Shown piece after piece: positions 25,728-63,567 of a DNA stretch of 64,000 bases; the first letter of the stretch is position 1; each line of letters starts with the position of its first letter. Origin of the DNA: Anaerolineales bacterium (GTDB taxonomy: Bacteria > Chloroflexota > Anaerolineae > Anaerolineales > UBA11858); NCBI GenBank assembly GCA_028278545.1, contig JANQED010000004.1:1-64000 (forward strand). Direction: 5' to 3'. The position numbers and the translations under genes are program-made. The notes below the pieces were generated by a model that saw nothing but the letters and a program-made list of their open reading frames with translations, was not told where the DNA came from and searched no databases.

Positions 25728-27296
25728 ATGCAAAGGCGTATCGTTCTTATCTTCATCGGATTGATTTCTCTTTCTCTGGCCCTGGCCTGGGTTTCTTCGG
25801 GATTCGCATCTCTCCAGGGATGGGGGACGTTTTTGCTGGTGTCCCTTTTGGGAGCGGGCATCCTCTGGGGGGGGCTGCTGGCAACCCAAAGGGAGTCCGT
25901 GCCCCGCTGGTTGATCTGGTTGTTGTTAGGGGCGTTTTTCTTGCGGCTCATCCTGGGGGTCTTCTGGTATGTGGCCCTGCCGCTTTGGGGATACGGCAGC
26001 AGCGCGGAGGCCGCCGGGTATGTCATGAGCGATGCCCACCAGCGCGATATGGCGGCGTGGGAATTGGCCCAATCTGCTCGCCCCTTGTGGGATGCTTTTG
26101 ACTCTTATCGTTCAGTCGATCAATATGGGGGCTTTTTGTTCTTCAGTTCGGCAGTTTATCGTTATCTGGGCGGGGATGTGCACCATCCGTTGATGATCGT
26201 CCTGCTGACGGCCGCGGTTTCGTCGTTGGCAGTTCTGTTCACCTGGGCGGTTGTTCGGCGATTGTGGGGTGAGGCTCCCGCCAAAGTGGCTGCCTGGCTT
26301 CTTGCGCTTTACCCCGAAGCGGTGCTGTTAGGCAGTTCGCAGATGCGTGAGGCATTTACAATGACTTTGGCCGCCGCGGCGGTCTTTGGCCTGGTACTTG
26401 CTTTACGAGAGCGGACCTGGCGGGGTGGCCTGTGGTTGTTGGGCGCGTTGTTATTATCGATCCCCCTCTCCCCAGCGTTTACATTGTTGCTGGTGCCCGT
26501 GCTTGGGCTTACGGCGGTATTCATGATCCGCCGTCGCTGGCTGCGGGACTGGCGCTTGTGGGCGACCTCGGGGGTGTTGTTGCTCGTCGGGCTGGCTGGC
26601 ATTTGGTTTTTTGGCGCACAGCAGTCACAGGGGGATTTGACCAATCCGATCACCGTTTTGCAGGACTGGATAGAGCGAACAGGGATCTGGCAGACCATTC
26701 TCAGCCAGCAGGCTTCGGGATGGATGTATAAGCTCTCGCAGAGCACCTCCCCGGATTTTTTCAAATGGATCGTCCTTGTTTTCGGGGTCGTTCAGCCTTT
26801 CCTGCCCGCGGCGCTGATCGCGAACGGCAATTGGCTTTGGCGCTCGATCGCCATCTGGCGCGCCCTGGGATGGACATTGTTGCTGCCCTTTTTGATCTAT
26901 GCCCCCTTACGCGCTTTGCGGAAACCGCGCCAATGGCTGATCCTCAGTTTCAGCGCGGCGATCTGGCTGGTGATCTTTGCTGCCTCATTCCGCAGCGGCG
27001 GCGATCAATGGGATAATCCCCGCTACAGGGCGGCCTTTGCTTGCCTTCAAATCGGCGTTGTCGCCTGGGTTTGGGTCAGCCAACGGCGTTCGTCTGACCC
27101 CTGGTTTCGTAGGATGCTGATCGGTGCTGGCTTGGTGATCCTTTGGTTTGTCCCCTGGTACTTACGCCGCTATACGGTGGTTGTCTGGCCGGTGGTCGAT
27201 GTCCTTAAGGTGTTTGGGCTGGGCCTATCGAGTGCAATGTTGTATCTGATATGGGATTGGGTGCGCGTAAGTGGTGCTGATCAAAGCCCGCCTTGA
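25728..27296 (+). CDS. GT39/PMT-like membrane glycosyltransferase
   Basis: 522-aa polytopic protein with about eleven membrane segments. The first large outside loop carries MSDAHQRDMAAWELA (acidic residues at the usual catalytic position) and DQYGGFLFFSSAVYRYLGG. A cytoplasmic LYPEAVLLGSSQMREAF loop also fits the ArnT/PMT_2 type. A single extracytoplasmic sugar transfer from a polyprenyl-phosphate donor is the likely reaction. It has its own possible promoter and is followed by a clear promoter for the next unit. Confidence 0.75.
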   Translation: MQRRIVLIFIGLISLSLALAWVSSGFASLQGWGTFLLVSLLGAGILWGGLLATQRESVPRWLIWLLLGAFFLRLILGVFWYVALPLWGYGSSAEAAGYVMSDAHQRDMAAWELAQSARPLWDAFDSYRSVDQYGGFLFFSSAVYRYLGGDVHHPLMIVLLTAAVSSLAVLFTWAVVRRLWGEAPAKVAAWLLALYPEAVLLGSSQMREAFTMTLAAAAVFGLVLALRERTWRGGLWLLGALLLSIPLSPAFTLLLVPVLGLTAVFMIRRRWLRDWRLWATSGVLLLVGLAGIWFFGAQQSQGDLTNPITVLQDWIERTGIWQTILSQQASGWMYKLSQSTSPDFFKWIVLVFGVVQPFLPAALIANGNWLWRSIAIWRALGWTLLLPFLIYAPLRALRKPRQWLILSFSAAIWLVIFAASFRSGGDQWDNPRYRAAFACLQIGVVAWVWVSQRRSSDPWFRRMLIGAGLVILWFVPWYLRRYTVVVWPVVDVLKVFGLGLSSAMLYLIWDWVRVSGADQSPP

Positions 27297-27320
27297 CCAA
27301 GCTATAATAGCCAGTATAAT
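27293..27320 (+). promoter_or_regulatory. Promoter of the Gmd-like gene
   Basis: TTGACC (27293-27298), 16-nt spacer, perfect TATAAT (27315-27320), overlapping the last codon and stop of the preceding gene. The leader is about 25 bases, with GAGGAA as the ribosome site before ATG 27351. Confidence 0.8.
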
Positions 27321-27350
27321 CAGCCGCTGATTGTAGATTGAGGAATATTC

Positions 27351-28319
27351 ATGCCGACCGCTCTCATCACAGGAATCGCAGGTCAAGATGGCTCCTATTT
27401 GGCGGAGTTGCTGCTGTCAAAGGGCTATCGAGTGCTGGGAATCGACCGCTTCTCCAGCATGGTGACTTATGAGCATCTTAAGCACTTTCAAGATGAGATC
27501 ACCTTGCTGGAAGGCAACCTGCTTGATCAGGGTTCCCTGGTTGCCGTCATGGAGCAGTATTCCCCTGATGAAGTCTATAATTTTGCGGCGCTCTCTTTCC
27601 CGGCGGGATCATGGTCGCAGCCGGTAGTGACGGGCGATATAACCGCGTTGGGTGTCACCAGGTTGCTAGAGGCCCTGCGATTGGTTTGCCCCGAGGCGCG
27701 CTTTTATCAGGCTTCGTCGAGCGAGATGTATGGCAACGTGCGCGAGGTGCCTCAAACGGAGAACACGCCCTTTTATCCGCGCAACCCCTATGGTGCGGCG
27801 AAAGTGTATGGGCATTGGATCACGGTAACTTATCGTGAAGAGTACGATATGTTCGCGTGTTCCGGGATTTTATACAACCATGAAAGCCCTCGTCGAGGGA
27901 TGGAATATGTCACCCGCAAGATCACCCATGGCGCGGCGCGCATTAAACTAGGCCTGGCGGACGAACTGCGTTTAGGAAACCTGGACGCCCGGCGTGACTG
28001 GGGCTATGCGGGCGATTACGCCAGAGCCATTTGGTTGATGCTCCAGCAGGATCAGGCGGATGATTATGTGGTTTGCACCGGGGAGACTCATTCCGTGCGC
28101 CAGTTCTGTGATGCGGCTTTCAGTCATGTGGGCTTGGACTATCAGGAGTATGTGGTACAAGATCCCCGCTTTTACCGTCCGGCAGAAGCCAACTTGCTGG
28201 TCGGTGACCCAACGCGCGCAAAAGAGGTGCTTGGCTGGGAGCCGAGCGTGGGTTTTGAGGAATTGGTCCAAAAGATGGTCGATGCCGATCTGCAATATTT
28301 GGGGAAGGAAATCCTCTAG
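27351..28319 (+). CDS. GDP-mannose 4,6-dehydratase-like protein
   Basis: 322-aa short-chain dehydrogenase close to Gmd. It has [19 protein letters not shown] (coenzyme loop), YQASSSEMYG (catalytic Ser/Thr and Glu), YGAAKVYGHW (YxxxK), [16 protein letters not shown] and a GNLDARRDWGYAGDYARA loop. It lacks the MIRRSS block that binds NADP and neighbouring subunits in true Gmd; here it reads GIDRFSS. It is also about 30 residues shorter than the gmd copy at 60651. It may dehydrate a different nucleotide sugar. It is coupled to the next gene by one shared base. Confidence 0.82.
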   Translation: MPTALITGIAGQDGSYLAELLLSKGYRVLGIDRFSSMVTYEHLKHFQDEITLLEGNLLDQGSLVAVMEQYSPDEVYNFAALSFPAGSWSQPVVTGDITALGVTRLLEALRLVCPEARFYQASSSEMYGNVREVPQTENTPFYPRNPYGAAKVYGHWITVTYREEYDMFACSGILYNHESPRRGMEYVTRKITHGAARIKLGLADELRLGNLDARRDWGYAGDYARAIWLMLQQDQADDYVVCTGETHSVRQFCDAAFSHVGLDYQEYVVQDPRFYRPAEANLLVGDPTRAKEVLGWEPSVGFEELVQKMVDADLQYLGKEIL

Positions 28320-57893: not shown

Positions 57894-58952
57894 CTATTCT
57901 TTTTCGCCTCGCGGGCTGAAACCTTGGCGGAGGTTGTTGATCAGGACGAAGCTGGCGAATGGCAGTACCCCCAGGGCCGGGATTAGCCATTTCAGCAGGT
58001 AGAGGTGGTTCTCTTTCGAACATTGATGGTTGATGTCGATAGTCTCGTTGCCTTCAGGGCCATAGATGTCGATCAGGTTTTTGATAGTGCTCTCGCCGTA
58101 ACCCTGGGCTTGATAAGCCTCTCGGATAAGTTCCGGGTTGGCTTCGATTTCGTCGATGTCATGTTCGATGACCACGCCATAATCGGCGTCTAGTATCCAC
58201 CACTCATCCGTTTCCCTATCGACCCGGGCGCGGGCGACGACGTGGCCTTCCAGACCGACGATGTGCGTGCGGACACGGTTTCTCCCCAGGATGTCCGCCA
58301 AGATCTTGGATGACTGCGAGCAAACGCAGGTCGAACGTTGGATTGCCCGTTCCGCCTGGCAGAATTCGTAATTATCATTTTCACCCTGGATCAGGTTTAT
58401 GAAGTAAATCAGGTAATTTTCGTGAATGGGGATACGCAGGTTGTAGGCGTTATCTTCCTCGAATTCCGGCCAGTAGTGGACTGTGCCGTCGAAGATCAAC
58501 TGGTTCAGGCGTTTGACATACTCTGGGTATTGTTCGTCAATCTCCTCGATCCGGTTCATCTGTGCGAAGACTTCTTCGGCGGAATACTCAAGGTACCGTA
58601 TTTTCCCGGCATATTCGATTCCCTGATAAACTGCCGGGTTTCTTAGAGGCAATGCTAATCCGATCAAATTGATGGCAAATAAGATCATGCTGATGGTCAG
58701 CAGGATGAAGCTGAACAACTTAGTGGAACGCATGGCTTGCTTGACCGTTCCAGGCGGTATCAGCCAACTGCTGATAAGGGTCAAAAAGACCCCCATGACG
58801 ATGACCGCGATTTGCAGCGTGCCGATCTCGTATAGCTCCGTGCGGTTTTGGATCAGGTCCAGGCTGGCGGCTCCCAAGATCAGCACGATCCCCAGTGCAT
58901 CCAAGGTTATGGAAAAATATCGTTTCACGAGGTCACGACGTTCGTTTGACAT
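57894..58952 (-). CDS. Membrane-anchored transglutaminase-like protein
   Basis: 352-aa protein with three N-terminal helices (about 18-32, 45-66, 78-102) and one C-terminal helix (about 318-340), enclosing a globular domain (about 110-310). That domain carries a cysteine-protease/transglutaminase-like triad: CVCSQSSKILADILGR (Cys209/211), GLEGHVVARA (His237) and WWILDADYG (Asp255). The active site is probably outside the membrane. The target and whether it cross-links or cleaves are unknown. It is divergent from the winged-helix regulator. Confidence 0.75.
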   Translation of the reverse strand: MSNERRDLVKRYFSITLDALGIVLILGAASLDLIQNRTELYEIGTLQIAVIVMGVFLTLISSWLIPPGTVKQAMRSTKLFSFILLTISMILFAINLIGLALPLRNPAVYQGIEYAGKIRYLEYSAEEVFAQMNRIEEIDEQYPEYVKRLNQLIFDGTVHYWPEFEEDNAYNLRIPIHENYLIYFINLIQGENDNYEFCQAERAIQRSTCVCSQSSKILADILGRNRVRTHIVGLEGHVVARARVDRETDEWWILDADYGVVIEHDIDEIEANPELIREAYQAQGYGESTIKNLIDIYGPEGNETIDINHQCSKENHLYLLKWLIPALGVLPFASFVLINNLRQGFSPRGEKE

Positions 58953-59071: not shown

Positions 59072-59099
59072 TTGACCAGACGCCCTTTTGAGCTATAAT
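59072..59099 (+). promoter_or_regulatory. Promoter of the winged-helix regulator
   Basis: TTGACC (59072-59077), 16-nt spacer, TATAAT (59094-59099). A TTG at 59088 lies inside this promoter, so translation starts at ATG 59136. Confidence 0.8.
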
Positions 59100-59115
59100 T
59101 CAGTCACTGAATTAT
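59095..59115. promoter_or_regulatory. 21-bp perfect palindrome over the -10 box (operator)
   Basis: Half sites ATAATTCAGT and ACTGAATTAT around a central C form a perfect 10+1+10 palindrome. It covers the last five bases of the -10 box and the transcription start of the regulator gene. This is the usual place for a repressor site, most simply bound by the encoded winged-helix protein. Confidence 0.7.
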
Positions 59116-59135: not shown

Positions 59136-59624
59136 ATGGAATTGGATACCACTCGCGAGGAACGCGAACTGATCCTGCTTGAGCAGATCGAGGAAGACCC
59201 GGACGTTACGCAGGCTACTTTGGCGAGCAGCCTTGATGTGGCCGTGGGAACGGTCAACTGGCATATTAAACGGATGGTTGCTAAAGGCTATATCAAGCTT
59301 AAACGGGCTGAACGTAAGAAGTTGAAATACATCATTACGCCCGAGGGCCTTGCATTTCGCGCCCATCTCACTGTCAAATACATAGAGAACTCGATGATGC
59401 TGTATCGCCGAACGCGGCGCCGCATGATCGAGATTCTGGCCGAAGTGCGGGAAGCCGGATTTGATAGCATTCGCATCCAGGGAGATGGCGACCTGGCCGA
59501 AGTGATCCGGTTGACATGTTTGGAACAGGGTATCAAGATTGAGAATGGCTTTGGCTTGCCTGCGGTAGAGATACGCGGCTGGCGAGTTTACCTGAACATG
59601 GCAGAGAGGGTTGATGGTGGATAA
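59136..59624 (+). CDS. Winged-helix (MarR-like) regulator of glycan genes
   Basis: 162-aa protein. The N-terminal winged helix (about 5-75) has DPDVTQATLASSLDVAVGTVNWHIKRMV as helix-turn-helix and wing. It resembles MarR-like regulators that accompany EPS loci. A helical linker follows (about 80-115), then a short C-terminal domain with IRIQGDGDLAEVIRL, a shortened Rossmann-like GxG element seen in larger regulators of this type. It probably represses its own promoter and the epimerase-gmd-fcl-exporter genes behind it. The stop overlaps the next start region by 11 bases. Confidence 0.82.
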   Translation: MELDTTREERELILLEQIEEDPDVTQATLASSLDVAVGTVNWHIKRMVAKGYIKLKRAERKKLKYIITPEGLAFRAHLTVKYIENSMMLYRRTRRRMIEILAEVREAGFDSIRIQGDGDLAEVIRLTCLEQGIKIENGFGLPAVEIRGWRVYLNMAERVDGG

Positions 59625-60627
59625 GCACGTAGTCATCACCGGTGGAGCGGGGTTTATCGGTTCGTATTTGACCGGGCAATTGCTCCATGAGGGCTATCAC
59701 GTTACGGTTGTCGATGATTTGCTCTATGGTGGTGAGTCTTTGCTGTCGTATCTTCCTAACGAGCTATTCCACTTCGTCAAGGCGGACGTGTGTGAGTCGC
59801 GCGCTATTCGCGCTTCAATAAGAAGCGACTGGGCAAAACCGCAGGCGGTCATTCACCTGGCGGCTATAGCCGGTTTTCCGACCTGTCAGTCGGTGGGCCG
59901 GTTGGTGGCCTGGCGGTACAACGTTGAGTCCACACAACATGTGTTTGAACAGACCGAGGCATTGGGTGTAGATAGATTCATCTATCTTTCTACCTACAGC
60001 AACTATGGTCTCTCTGCTGATGGAGAGCCGGTAACCGAGGAGACCCCCCTAAACCCTCAATCCTTGTATGCGGAGACCAAAGTAGCCTCAGAGCGCTATC
60101 TGTTGGCACAAACGGAGGGCAGCACCTGTGCCCCCATGATCTTTCGGCCAACGACGTTATATGGCCTTTCTCCTCGACCGCGTTTCGACCTCATCGTCAA
60201 CCAGTTCGTTTTCGACGCCTACATCCGGCGGAAACTGATGATCTATCAGCGTGGTTATTCGCGTTCCTTCGTTCACATCGCGGACGCCGTTCATGGTATT
60301 ATTTTGGGTCTTCAGTCGCCAGTGGAGAGCATCCGAGGACAGGTATTCAACGTTGGTGCTGAACGAGGCAACCTGACCAAAGATCAGGTTGTAAAGCTGA
60401 TCCTCAAGCGCCTGCCGGAAACCCGTATCCAGTATAAGGATATAACTTTCGGAGGCAATATGCGCGATATCAGCGTCTCATTCAAGAAAATCCAGGATGA
60501 ATTGGGTTTCAAGGCAAAATATTCCGTCGATGATGGTGTGCGAGAAATCTTGCACGCCTTGCAGGATGGACTCATCCGCGAACCGAGTGATCCGCGCTAT
60601 CGCAACGCGCGGTTCATCGTACAATAA
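59614..60627 (+). CDS. NAD-dependent epimerase/dehydratase
   Basis: 337-aa extended short-chain dehydrogenase: [34 protein letters not shown] with [11 protein letters not shown] (YxxxK), [16 protein letters not shown] and NVGAERGN. The sugar nucleotide cannot be fixed from sequence. The ATG at 59614 overlaps the regulator; GAGGG precedes it. It is followed 23 bases later by gmd. Confidence 0.85.
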
Positions 60628-60650: not shown

Positions 60651-61718
60651 ATGAAAAAAGCTTTGATTACGGGCATATCTGGCCAAGATGGCTCATACCT
60701 CACAGAGCTGTTGTTATCGAAAGGCTATCAAGTTCATGGCATGATCCGTCGGTCGAGCACCTTTAACACAGGACGCATCGATCACATTTATCGTGACCCT
60801 CACAATGGTGATAAGGCCAGGATGCGGCTCTACTACGGGGACTTGACCAGCACTGATAGCTTGCAAAACGTGATCTCCGAAGTTGAGCCTGATGAGATTT
60901 ATAATCTGGCTGCTCAGAGCCATGTGCGCGTTAGCTTTGACATGCCTGAATATACCGGGGATGTCACCGGTTTAGGGACTTTGCGTCTCTTAGAAGCCAT
61001 TCGTCGCACGGGAGCCAAGGTGCGTTTTTATCAGGCTTCGACTAGCGAATTGTTTGGGAGCGCGTCCCCCCCTCAAAGCGAGGCCACGCCCTTTGAGCCG
61101 CAGAGTCCGTATGCCGCTGCCAAGGCCTATGCCCATTGGGTCACCCAAAATTACCGCGAGGGCTATGGGGTCTTTGCCAGCAGCGGCATACTCTTCAATC
61201 ACGAGTCCCCGCGCCGGGGCGAGACCTTCGTCACTCGCAAGATCACGCGTGCCGTGGCGGCGATCCTGGCCGGGAAACAGGAACACCTCTACATGGGCAA
61301 TTTAGACTCAAAACGTGACTGGGGATATGCGCCAGAATATGTGGAAGTGATGTGGCGCTTGCTACAGCACGATGAGCCTATGGATTTGGTGATCGGCACG
61401 GGGGAATCGCACACTGTGCGCGAGTTCTTAGAAGAGGCTTTTGGGTACGTCAATTTGGATTATCAAGACTATGTGCGCATTGATCCCCAGTATTTTCGCC
61501 CTACGGAGGTGGATTTCCTGTTGGCGGATGCCAGGAAAGCCAAAGATGTATTGGGCTGGGAGCCGAGGATTCGCTTCAAGGATCTAGCGCGCATCATGAT
61601 GGATGCTGACCTGGAGCTGCTGGGGCTGGAAGCTCCCGGTGATGGGAAGTGCCTCCTGGCAGAACGCTTTGATGGCTGGCATCGCTGGGAAGATCAAATC
61701 GTGAGCATGGATAAATAA
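60651..61718 (+). CDS. gmd: GDP-mannose 4,6-dehydratase
   Basis: 355-aa enzyme converting GDP-mannose to GDP-4-keto-6-deoxymannose. It has [19 protein letters not shown], the [22 protein letters not shown]/tetramer block that marks true Gmd, [20 protein letters not shown] and a [17 protein letters not shown] loop. ATG 60651 is preferred because GAAGGG lies seven bases upstream; a TTG at 60636 is less likely. It precedes fcl by 2 bases. Confidence 0.93.
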
Positions 61719-61720
61719 CG

Positions 61721-62695
61721 ATGGTTGAGAAAGCATATCCTGACCCTAACGAATTTTGGGCCAACCGGCGGGTTTGTGTGACGGGCGGGGCCGGTTTTTT
61801 GGGCTCCTTTGTGCAGCAGGAATTGCGGGAAAGAGGCGCGGCAGAGGTCTTCATCCCTCATGTTGAAGACTATGATTTGACCCTGTTGGAAGATACCCGG
61901 CGGGTGTTGCGGGATGCCAATCCAGATGTGATCATACATCTGGCGGCATTGGCGGGGGGCATTGGCGTCAACCGCGCCCGCCCGGCCGAGTTTTTCTATC
62001 AAAACCTGATGATGGGTGTACCGTTGATGCACGAGGCCTGGAAACACGGGGTGGAGAAATTCGTCGCTATTGGGACGATATGCGCCTATCCGAAATTTAC
62101 CCCCGTTCCTTTCAAAGAGGAGAATTTGTGGGATGGCTATCCCGAAGAAACCAACGCTCCCTATGGATTGGCGAAAAAGATGCTCCTGGTTCAGGCGCAG
62201 GCTTATCGAGAACAGTACGGTTTCAACGCCATCTTTTTACTCCCCGTGAACCTGTATGGCCCGCGCGATAATTTCAACCTGGAGACATCTCATGTGATAC
62301 CGGCGTTGATCCGTAAGATGATCGAGGCCCAGCAGCGCGGCGACCCCGAAGTGGTTTTGTGGGGGGATGGCTCACCCACGCGTGAGTTCTTCTACGCTGG
62401 GGATGCCGCCCGCGGCATTGTGATGGCTGCGGAGCGTTACAATCGCTCTGAGCCGGTTAATCTGGGCTCAGGCATGGAAATCAGCATCAAAGATTTGGCC
62501 CAGTTGATTGCTCGGCTAACTGGGTTTGAAGGCCGAATTGTCTGGGATACCAGCAGGCCCAATGGCCAGCCGCGGCGCGGCCTGGACACCAGTCGAGCGA
62601 AAGAGTATTTCGGCTTCGAGGCCGAGATGCCTTTCGAAGAGGGCTTGCGGCGCACAATCGAGTGGTTTAGAGAAAACCAGGATGCGGTACCCTGA
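61721..62695 (+). CDS. fcl: GDP-L-fucose synthase
   Basis: 324-aa bifunctional epimerase-reductase completing GDP-fucose. It has [47 protein letters not shown] (YxxxK), a [21 protein letters not shown] loop and [12 protein letters not shown]. It lies directly after gmd and 14 bases before the second ABC permease, in the same unit. Confidence 0.92.
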
Positions 62696-62709: not shown

Positions 62710-63567
62710 ATGGCTGAAACTTCTCTCGTTACCCAACCAACCCCAGAGACGATCATCCTGCGCCCCTCGCGCGGCTGGTCGGCGTTGAACTTGAAAGACC
62801 TCTGGCGCTACCGGGAGTTGATCTTCTTTCTTACCTGGCGGGACATCAAAGTTCGTTATAAGCAGACCGTTCTCGGCGTGGCTTGGGCGGTTATTCGTCC
62901 GGTGGTGACGATGATCGTTTATTCGCTCATCTTCGGCCAGCTTGCCAGCCTCGATTCTGAAGGCGTTCCATACACCATTTTTACCTATGTAGCGCTGTTG
63001 CCCTGGCAGTTATTCTCAAAGGCCATCTCTGATACGGGCCGCTCCATGGTATCGAATCGCAATATGATCACCAAGATATATTTCCCGCGCTTGGTCATCC
63101 CGATTTCTACCGTCCTGAGCGGTTTGGTTGATTTCTTTATTGCTTTCGTGATTTTGATCGGGATGATGGTGTATTACGATATCCCACTCACTTCGGCGAT
63201 TTGGACCTTCCCCCTGTTTTTGCTTTTGACCCTGGTCTCTGCCCTGGGTGTTGGTTTGTGGTTTTCCTCGCTGAATGTGCTGTACCGGGATGTGGGCTAT
63301 ATGCTGCCGTTCCTCACCGAGACGTGGAAGTATCTCACCCCGGTAGCGTATTCGTCGCAGTACATCACCGGAACCTGGAAGTTGATCTACTCACTCAACC
63401 CCATGGCTGGCGTCGTGCAGGGTTTCCGTTGGGCACTGTTGGGCATTGAGCTTGACCCTTCAGCGCCGTTGACCATGTCGATATCGGTTGGTATCGCTCT
63501 GGTGGTTTTAATCAGCGGCCTGTTCTACTTCCGCCGCATGGAACGCACTTTTGCGGATATGGTGTAG
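62710..63567 (+). CDS. ABC-2 polysaccharide export permease (Wzm-like), second copy
   Basis: 285-aa permease with six helices, paralogous to the one at 41501: SRGWSALNLKDLWRYRELIFF, RDIKVRYKQTVLGVAWAVIRP and RRMERTFADMV align block for block. It is part of the regulator-epimerase-gmd-fcl unit and should pair with the ATPase that follows after a 114-base gap. Confidence 0.9.
   Translation: MAETSLVTQPTPETIILRPSRGWSALNLKDLWRYRELIFFLTWRDIKVRYKQTVLGVAWAVIRPVVTMIVYSLIFGQLASLDSEGVPYTIFTYVALLPWQLFSKAISDTGRSMVSNRNMITKIYFPRLVIPISTVLSGLVDFFIAFVILIGMMVYYDIPLTSAIWTFPLFLLLTLVSALGVGLWFSSLNVLYRDVGYMLPFLTETWKYLTPVAYSSQYITGTWKLIYSLNPMAGVVQGFRWALLGIELDPSAPLTMSISVGIALVVLISGLFYFRRMERTFADMV

Follow-up and report, generated by a model that had tools for sequence, protein, structure and literature searches.

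Which factor reads a perfect palindrome lying on the promoter of a predicted winged-helix (wHTH) regulator gene, and which genes does it govern? This question is raised by the 21-bp sequence ATAATTCAGTCACTGAATTAT at positions 59095-59115 of the window, that is, of the whole 64-kb stretch of DNA analysed here. It is composed of ATAATTCAGT-C-ACTGAATTAT, ten perfect base pairs flanking one central base, and thus agrees exactly with the earlier note, which had described a perfect 21-bp palindrome with 10-bp half-sites. The comparisons summarized below indicate that it is very likely a switch for both the self-control of the regulator and the making of surface sugars. The features of the locus are:

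59072..59077, plus strand: -35 hexamer TTGACC, found by promoter scan and kept upstream of orthologues
59094..59099, plus strand: -10 hexamer TATAAT, found by promoter scan, kept in orthologues and overlapped by the left operator arm
59095..59115, no strand assigned: predicted palindromic operator of 21 bp, based on sequence, conservation and recurrence at gmd
59136..59624, plus strand: gene for the wHTH regulator of 162 amino acids, based on Pfam matches and predicted structure
59617..60627, plus strand: gene for an NAD-dependent epimerase in the same operon; the regulator gene ends within it
60651..61718, plus strand: gmd1, GDP-mannose 4,6-dehydratase, third gene of the operon
61721..62695, plus strand: second NAD-dependent epimerase gene, putatively of the GDP-fucose-synthase type, in the same operon
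62710..63567, plus strand: ABC-2 type polysaccharide export permease gene, in the same operon

The five genes from the regulator through the epimerase, gmd1 and the second epimerase to the permease lie no more than about 25 bp apart, which indicates one operon. A divergent gene with predicted membrane segments adjoins the regulator on the minus strand (57894-58952); no Pfam family scored above its cutoff for this gene, and a counterpart apparently occupies the same place in genome G002.

The promoter TTGACC-N16-TATAAT (59072-59099) agrees with the consensus at 11 of 12 positions, has a 16-bp spacer and is the sole promoter-like site on the plus strand between 58500 and 60500. Its ATAAT is common to the left arm of the palindrome, so the overlap with the -10 box claimed in the earlier note can be read directly, whereas coverage of the start point, claimed there as well, depends on a predicted start near 59106, within the palindrome, if transcription begins seven bases past the -10 box. 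The palindrome lies 20 bp upstream of the wHTH start codon, most likely the ATG at 59136. The centres of its half-sites, ATTCA and TGAAT, are 10 bp apart, which is one helical turn and therefore a fit for a protein dimer.

When arms of at least 10 bp were considered, with odd or even centres, this palindrome was alone in the 64-kb window. By composition, approximately 0.06 such palindromes are expected per window and approximately 1e-6 at one given place, the latter figure bearing out the tiny chance that had been asserted for this exact position. One palindrome in a window where 0.06 are expected is by itself no proof, and a chance origin has to be weighed against its conservation across the class and its second target, both described below; conservation rules this origin out, and we give it a negligible probability.

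The wHTH protein is present in 37 of 61 relatives. Upstream of its orthologues, a block TTGACC-N16/17-TTATAATTCARNNNYTGAATTWTGGA recurs while the spacer and leader sequences vary. Among 69 wHTH loci, comprising orthologues and paralogues picked by protein homology alone, 66 carry TTCAN5TGAA within 110 bp upstream of the gene, compared to 0.36% of control windows from the same loci. The three exceptions are a locus at a contig edge (L046), a locus whose wHTH gene lies inside a gmd operon with the operator at the operon head (L209 and L059, respectively), and the G002 locus (L006), which has an altered operator. The earlier note had named lack of conservation near orthologues as the observation that would speak against an operator; palindrome and promoter are in fact kept in nearly all orthologues throughout one class of Chloroflexota. 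Many of these genomes are incomplete metagenome assemblies in which absences are soft, and the genomes are related, which makes counts across them dependent on each other.

Since the -10 hexamer partly fixes the left arm, the sequence could be thought to serve only as a promoter or leader feature, such as an extended -10 element with the initial transcribed region, or an RNA hairpin. The right arm, however, is as conserved as the left in the homology-chosen orthologues while promoter spacer and leader vary, and tandem and extra copies of the site, together with the matched double change in G002 (see below), argue for recognition of DNA. A hairpin or leader function was rejected, as transcription from the predicted start within the palindrome would leave the RNA without one arm, and the folding of the leader shows no advantage over that of shuffled sequences (z -0.07). 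We consider this explanation very improbable and retain that of an operator. The copies in question are two overlapping operators 14 bp apart in six distant loci (L214, L215, L224, L225, L036 and L032) and an additional upstream palindrome near the -35 box in four others (L090, L136, L195 and L039).

Several loci show further variation. At L087:5482-5503, a second operator copy is followed by the first wHTH codons and then breaks off, as in a decayed duplicate. Paralogues with 35-37% identity (L041, L043 and L305-L309) have the palindrome as AGAATTCA.....TGAAT and lack a good -10 box; they may represent another regulator that uses a similar site. L195, which is labelled Bacteroidetes, has an Anaerolinea-like wHTH locus with tandem operators and is probably a mis-binned contig. 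No strong wHTH homologue was found among the genomes sampled from other classes of the phylum, the sample being partial and the family patchy.

With regard to the protein, three Pfam models score above their curated cutoffs (PF13412, 45.2 bits against 21.9; PF12802, 29.4 against 27; PF01047, 25.4 against 24.6), and these scores place it in the MarR superfamily of winged-helix proteins. In classical MarR proteins, the winged helix is framed by N- and C-terminal helices that make up the dimer interface; the predicted structure of this protein (mean pLDDT 83) opens directly with a winged helix (residues 5-67, recognition helix 37-50), which is followed by one long helix (69-106) and an extra alpha/beta domain of beta-alpha-beta-beta topology (111-154). 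Matches of the model in the PDB are divided among MarR, PadR and other proteins, and the predicted fold combines a winged helix of the MarR/PadR type with the long helix. The C-terminal domain (window 59433-59621) has a conserved motif, G.GD.A[DE]...LTCLEQG, and a pLDDT of 91 when modelled by itself. No domain was found in it by a Pfam search and nothing below an E value of 0.18 by Foldseek; structure searches gave weak matches, of which VIA scored best (Z 7.9), and several RNA-binding chains of the THUMP type were among the top ones (Z 6-8). This domain is perhaps a sensor of a small-molecule signal, which we propose without proof.

Genome-wide scans extended the analysis to further targets. 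A search of 298 genomes of the class found the pattern TATAATTCANNNNYTGAATTWT in 19, every one of them among the 38 with a wHTH gene, while the same pattern reversed, used as a control, occurs in none of the 298. The hypergeometric probability of this overlap is approximately 1e-19 if kinship is ignored, and kinship makes the true figure weaker. Almost all matches (29 of 30) directly precede either the wHTH gene or a gene whose product starts with MPTALITGITGQDGSYLAE, a homologue of GDP-mannose 4,6-dehydratase (gmd). An independent scan of GTDB contigs found TATAATTCARNNNYTGAATTWT in at least 119 places; 82 of the 119 matches listed directly precede wHTH or gmd (55 wHTH, 25 gmd and 2 both, leaving 37 with neither). 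Among these listed matches, all 82 positives are labelled Chloroflexota or Anaerolineae save L195, and just two of the 37 remaining loci (L102 and L150) come from Chloroflexota. Among gmd genes located outside the wHTH operon in the 61 relatives, the site is present at 10 of the 31 from wHTH-positive genomes versus 1 of the 22 from wHTH-negative ones (Fisher p 0.017, a presence statistic that ignores kinship).

Co-occurrence by itself cannot name the reader of the site, and a different, unlinked regulator could control both the wHTH gene and gmd; the single wHTH-negative case, genome G010, has the site before gmd although wHTH was not detected. On the other hand, G010 is 80% complete, and gmd of its sister G012 is preceded by an apparent end of the epimerase gene of the operon. 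Moreover, 19 of 19 genomes bearing the site carry wHTH, and changes in the recognition helix of the G002 protein coincide with symmetric changes of its site. An unlinked reader is thus improbable in our estimation, and the wHTH protein itself is the preferred candidate.

In the genus of the window, gmd is located inside the wHTH operon, and the window contains a second gmd gene:

27318..27332, no strand assigned: diverged palindrome AATCAGCCGCTGATT, candidate operator on the gmd2 -10 box
27351..28319, plus strand: gmd2, of the gmd type that in many related genomes bears the canonical operator

The gmd2 promoter has its -35 box, TTGACC, at 27293-27298 and, after a 16-bp spacer, its -10 box at 27315-27320. 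Both arms of AATCAGCCGCTGATT depart symmetrically from the canonical site, and this form is common to the window genome and its congener G001 only; in congeners G003, G004 and G005, gmd2 is preceded by the canonical site. This is probably a second, diverged operator, and the same wHTH protein may bind it, although the site is off consensus in G000 and G001 and their recognition helices are not.

The earlier note had anticipated a searchable site. A signature of this kind does exist in the form of TATAATTCARNNNYTGAATTWT, but the suggested query TTCAGTNACTGAA is too strict, as the central bases vary; run on this genome, it found one further place, on contig C166 between genes for a ROK-type regulator and a sugar-binding protein, which lacks the outer arms and was judged to be chance. 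Three additional ATTCAN5TGAAT places in this genome do not match the consensus, and TATAATTCARNNNYTGAATTWT with up to three mismatches yields weak extra matches only, so that a broad canonical-site regulon in this genome was rejected. The regulon appears to be small, probably comprising the operon that the regulator heads, gmd and a few further glycan genes.

Sites elsewhere have other neighbours. In two different genomes, a canonical site lies 112 bp (L343, G058:C65) and 184 bp (L102) before a family-2 glycosyltransferase gene; the gene after that one encodes a multi-pass membrane protein, and this locus is a probable further target. At L340 (G017:C136), L341 (G013:C14) and L346 (G015:C131), an operator and a -35 box are present and the next long ORF is 850-1260 bp away, encoding an ABC-2 permease or a large membrane protein that G013 and G015 share; the distance may be due to a long untranslated leader or to small genes that escaped recognition. 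At L047 (G297:C255), the site precedes a gene resembling phage or plasmid replication genes, neither wHTH nor gmd, and is probably a chance occurrence.

The recognition helix, VAVGT[VI]NW[HY].KR, is nearly invariant in 114 sequences, matching the invariance of the operator, although part of this set was picked for the canonical site and its invariance should be weighed alongside the 69 homology-chosen loci, in which most helix deviations (H43Y, T39S and V37I) accompany an unchanged half-site core. In the G002 operator (TATAATTCGGTAGCCGAATTTT), both half-sites are altered symmetrically and in a complementary manner (TTCGG...CCGAA), and the G002 wHTH protein (IAASTVNWHIQR) has V35I, V37A, G38S and K45Q in its recognition helix, K45Q occurring only once among the 114 sequences. 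A search of seven genomes of the genus turned up no other TATAATTCGN5CGAAT site. This matched change, a single evolutionary event, is what co-evolution of specificity would predict, and it suggests that the site is read by the wHTH protein. The G002 operator is set apart from its gene by an inserted leader of approximately 115 bp. The insert contains a strong inverted repeat (CCCGAAAAAAGGG...CCCTTTTTTCGGG) between operator and gene, and a similar repeat lies approximately 100 bp further upstream; it is perhaps a small mobile element.

Taken together, these data lead us to propose, with considerable confidence, that a MarR-like dimeric wHTH repressor binds the palindrome and keeps RNA polymerase off its own operon and, in many genomes, off gmd as well. 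One recognition helix of the dimer would contact each half-site, ATTCA and TGAAT, and the bound dimer would exclude RNA polymerase from the -10 box and the start point. The regulator would thereby repress the glycan operon that it heads, so that its own level stays coupled to the pathway, and the same operator on the separate gmd promoter of many related genomes would place that gene under the same control. The core task of such a repressor would be to co-ordinate the supply of GDP-6-deoxyhexose with the assembly of polysaccharide. The wHTH protein could instead activate or co-activate from the palindrome, a reading to which the additional palindromes near the -35 box in the four loci mentioned above might lend themselves. 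However, the site overlaps the -10 box and start point in nearly all loci, which suits a blockade, and the promoter is near consensus, so that an activator would be unneeded; steric repression is the most economical reading of a site over the -10 box and probable start of such a promoter, and activation seems unlikely. The autoregulatory operator suggested in the earlier note is thus supported by orthologue conservation, recurrence at gmd and the matched change in G002; physical binding, dimerisation, repression rather than activation, and a small-molecule signal are our inferences.

In classical autoregulated repressors of the MarR type, a palindromic operator overlaps promoter elements of the repressor's own gene. 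The wHTH regulator likewise has a conserved palindrome on its own promoter, as is expected of an autoregulated repressor at the head of an operon; the differences are that the operator coincides here with the -10 box at a nearly fixed position across the class and that the regulon is centred on GDP-mannose dehydratase. The best named relative by sequence is MarR_EPS (TIGR04176, NCBIfam, MarR family EPS-associated transcriptional regulator), the name of which associates it with exopolysaccharide genes. This model spans the winged helix and the long helix and matches all 34 aligned wHTH members, but its 105 positions stop before the C-terminal domain, and membership was rejected for the window protein, which scores 63.2 bits against a curated equivalog cutoff of 88. 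The nearest solved structure by sequence is that of FabT (6jbx). FabT of Streptococcus and Enterococcus is a MarR-family repressor encoded by the first gene of the fatty-acid operon that it represses, and its winged-helix dimer recognises palindromes both in the promoter of that operon and in a few others belonging to the same pathway (PMC9083066, PMC13046290). The position of the regulator gene at the operon head and the palindromes at its own and related promoters are alike in the two systems, whereas FabT belongs to a fatty-acid pathway in another phylum, and no helices precede the winged helix in the Chloroflexota protein, which carries the extra C-terminal domain; membership in the FabT family was rejected (NF050133, 28.2 bits against a cutoff of 200). 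No paper describing this wHTH regulator or its site was found in the literature searched.

A bolder proposal, which is possible but which we regard as doubtful, is that the protein represents an undescribed, class-wide Anaerolineae family whose novel C-terminal sensor measures sugar flux through GDP-4-keto-6-deoxymannose, with one fixed operator repressing both gmd and the assembly operon and thereby setting the make-up of the surface glycan. More conservatively, the wHTH protein and its operator are a new, well-supported member of a known repressor type in Anaerolineae, a large and mostly uncultured class for which we found little on the regulation of transcription. Regulator, operator and second target pathway form a complete testable unit, the naturally occurring pair of protein and operator variants that match each other predicts specificity residues, and the operator signature may be used for locating GDP-deoxyhexose glycan loci in metagenomes.
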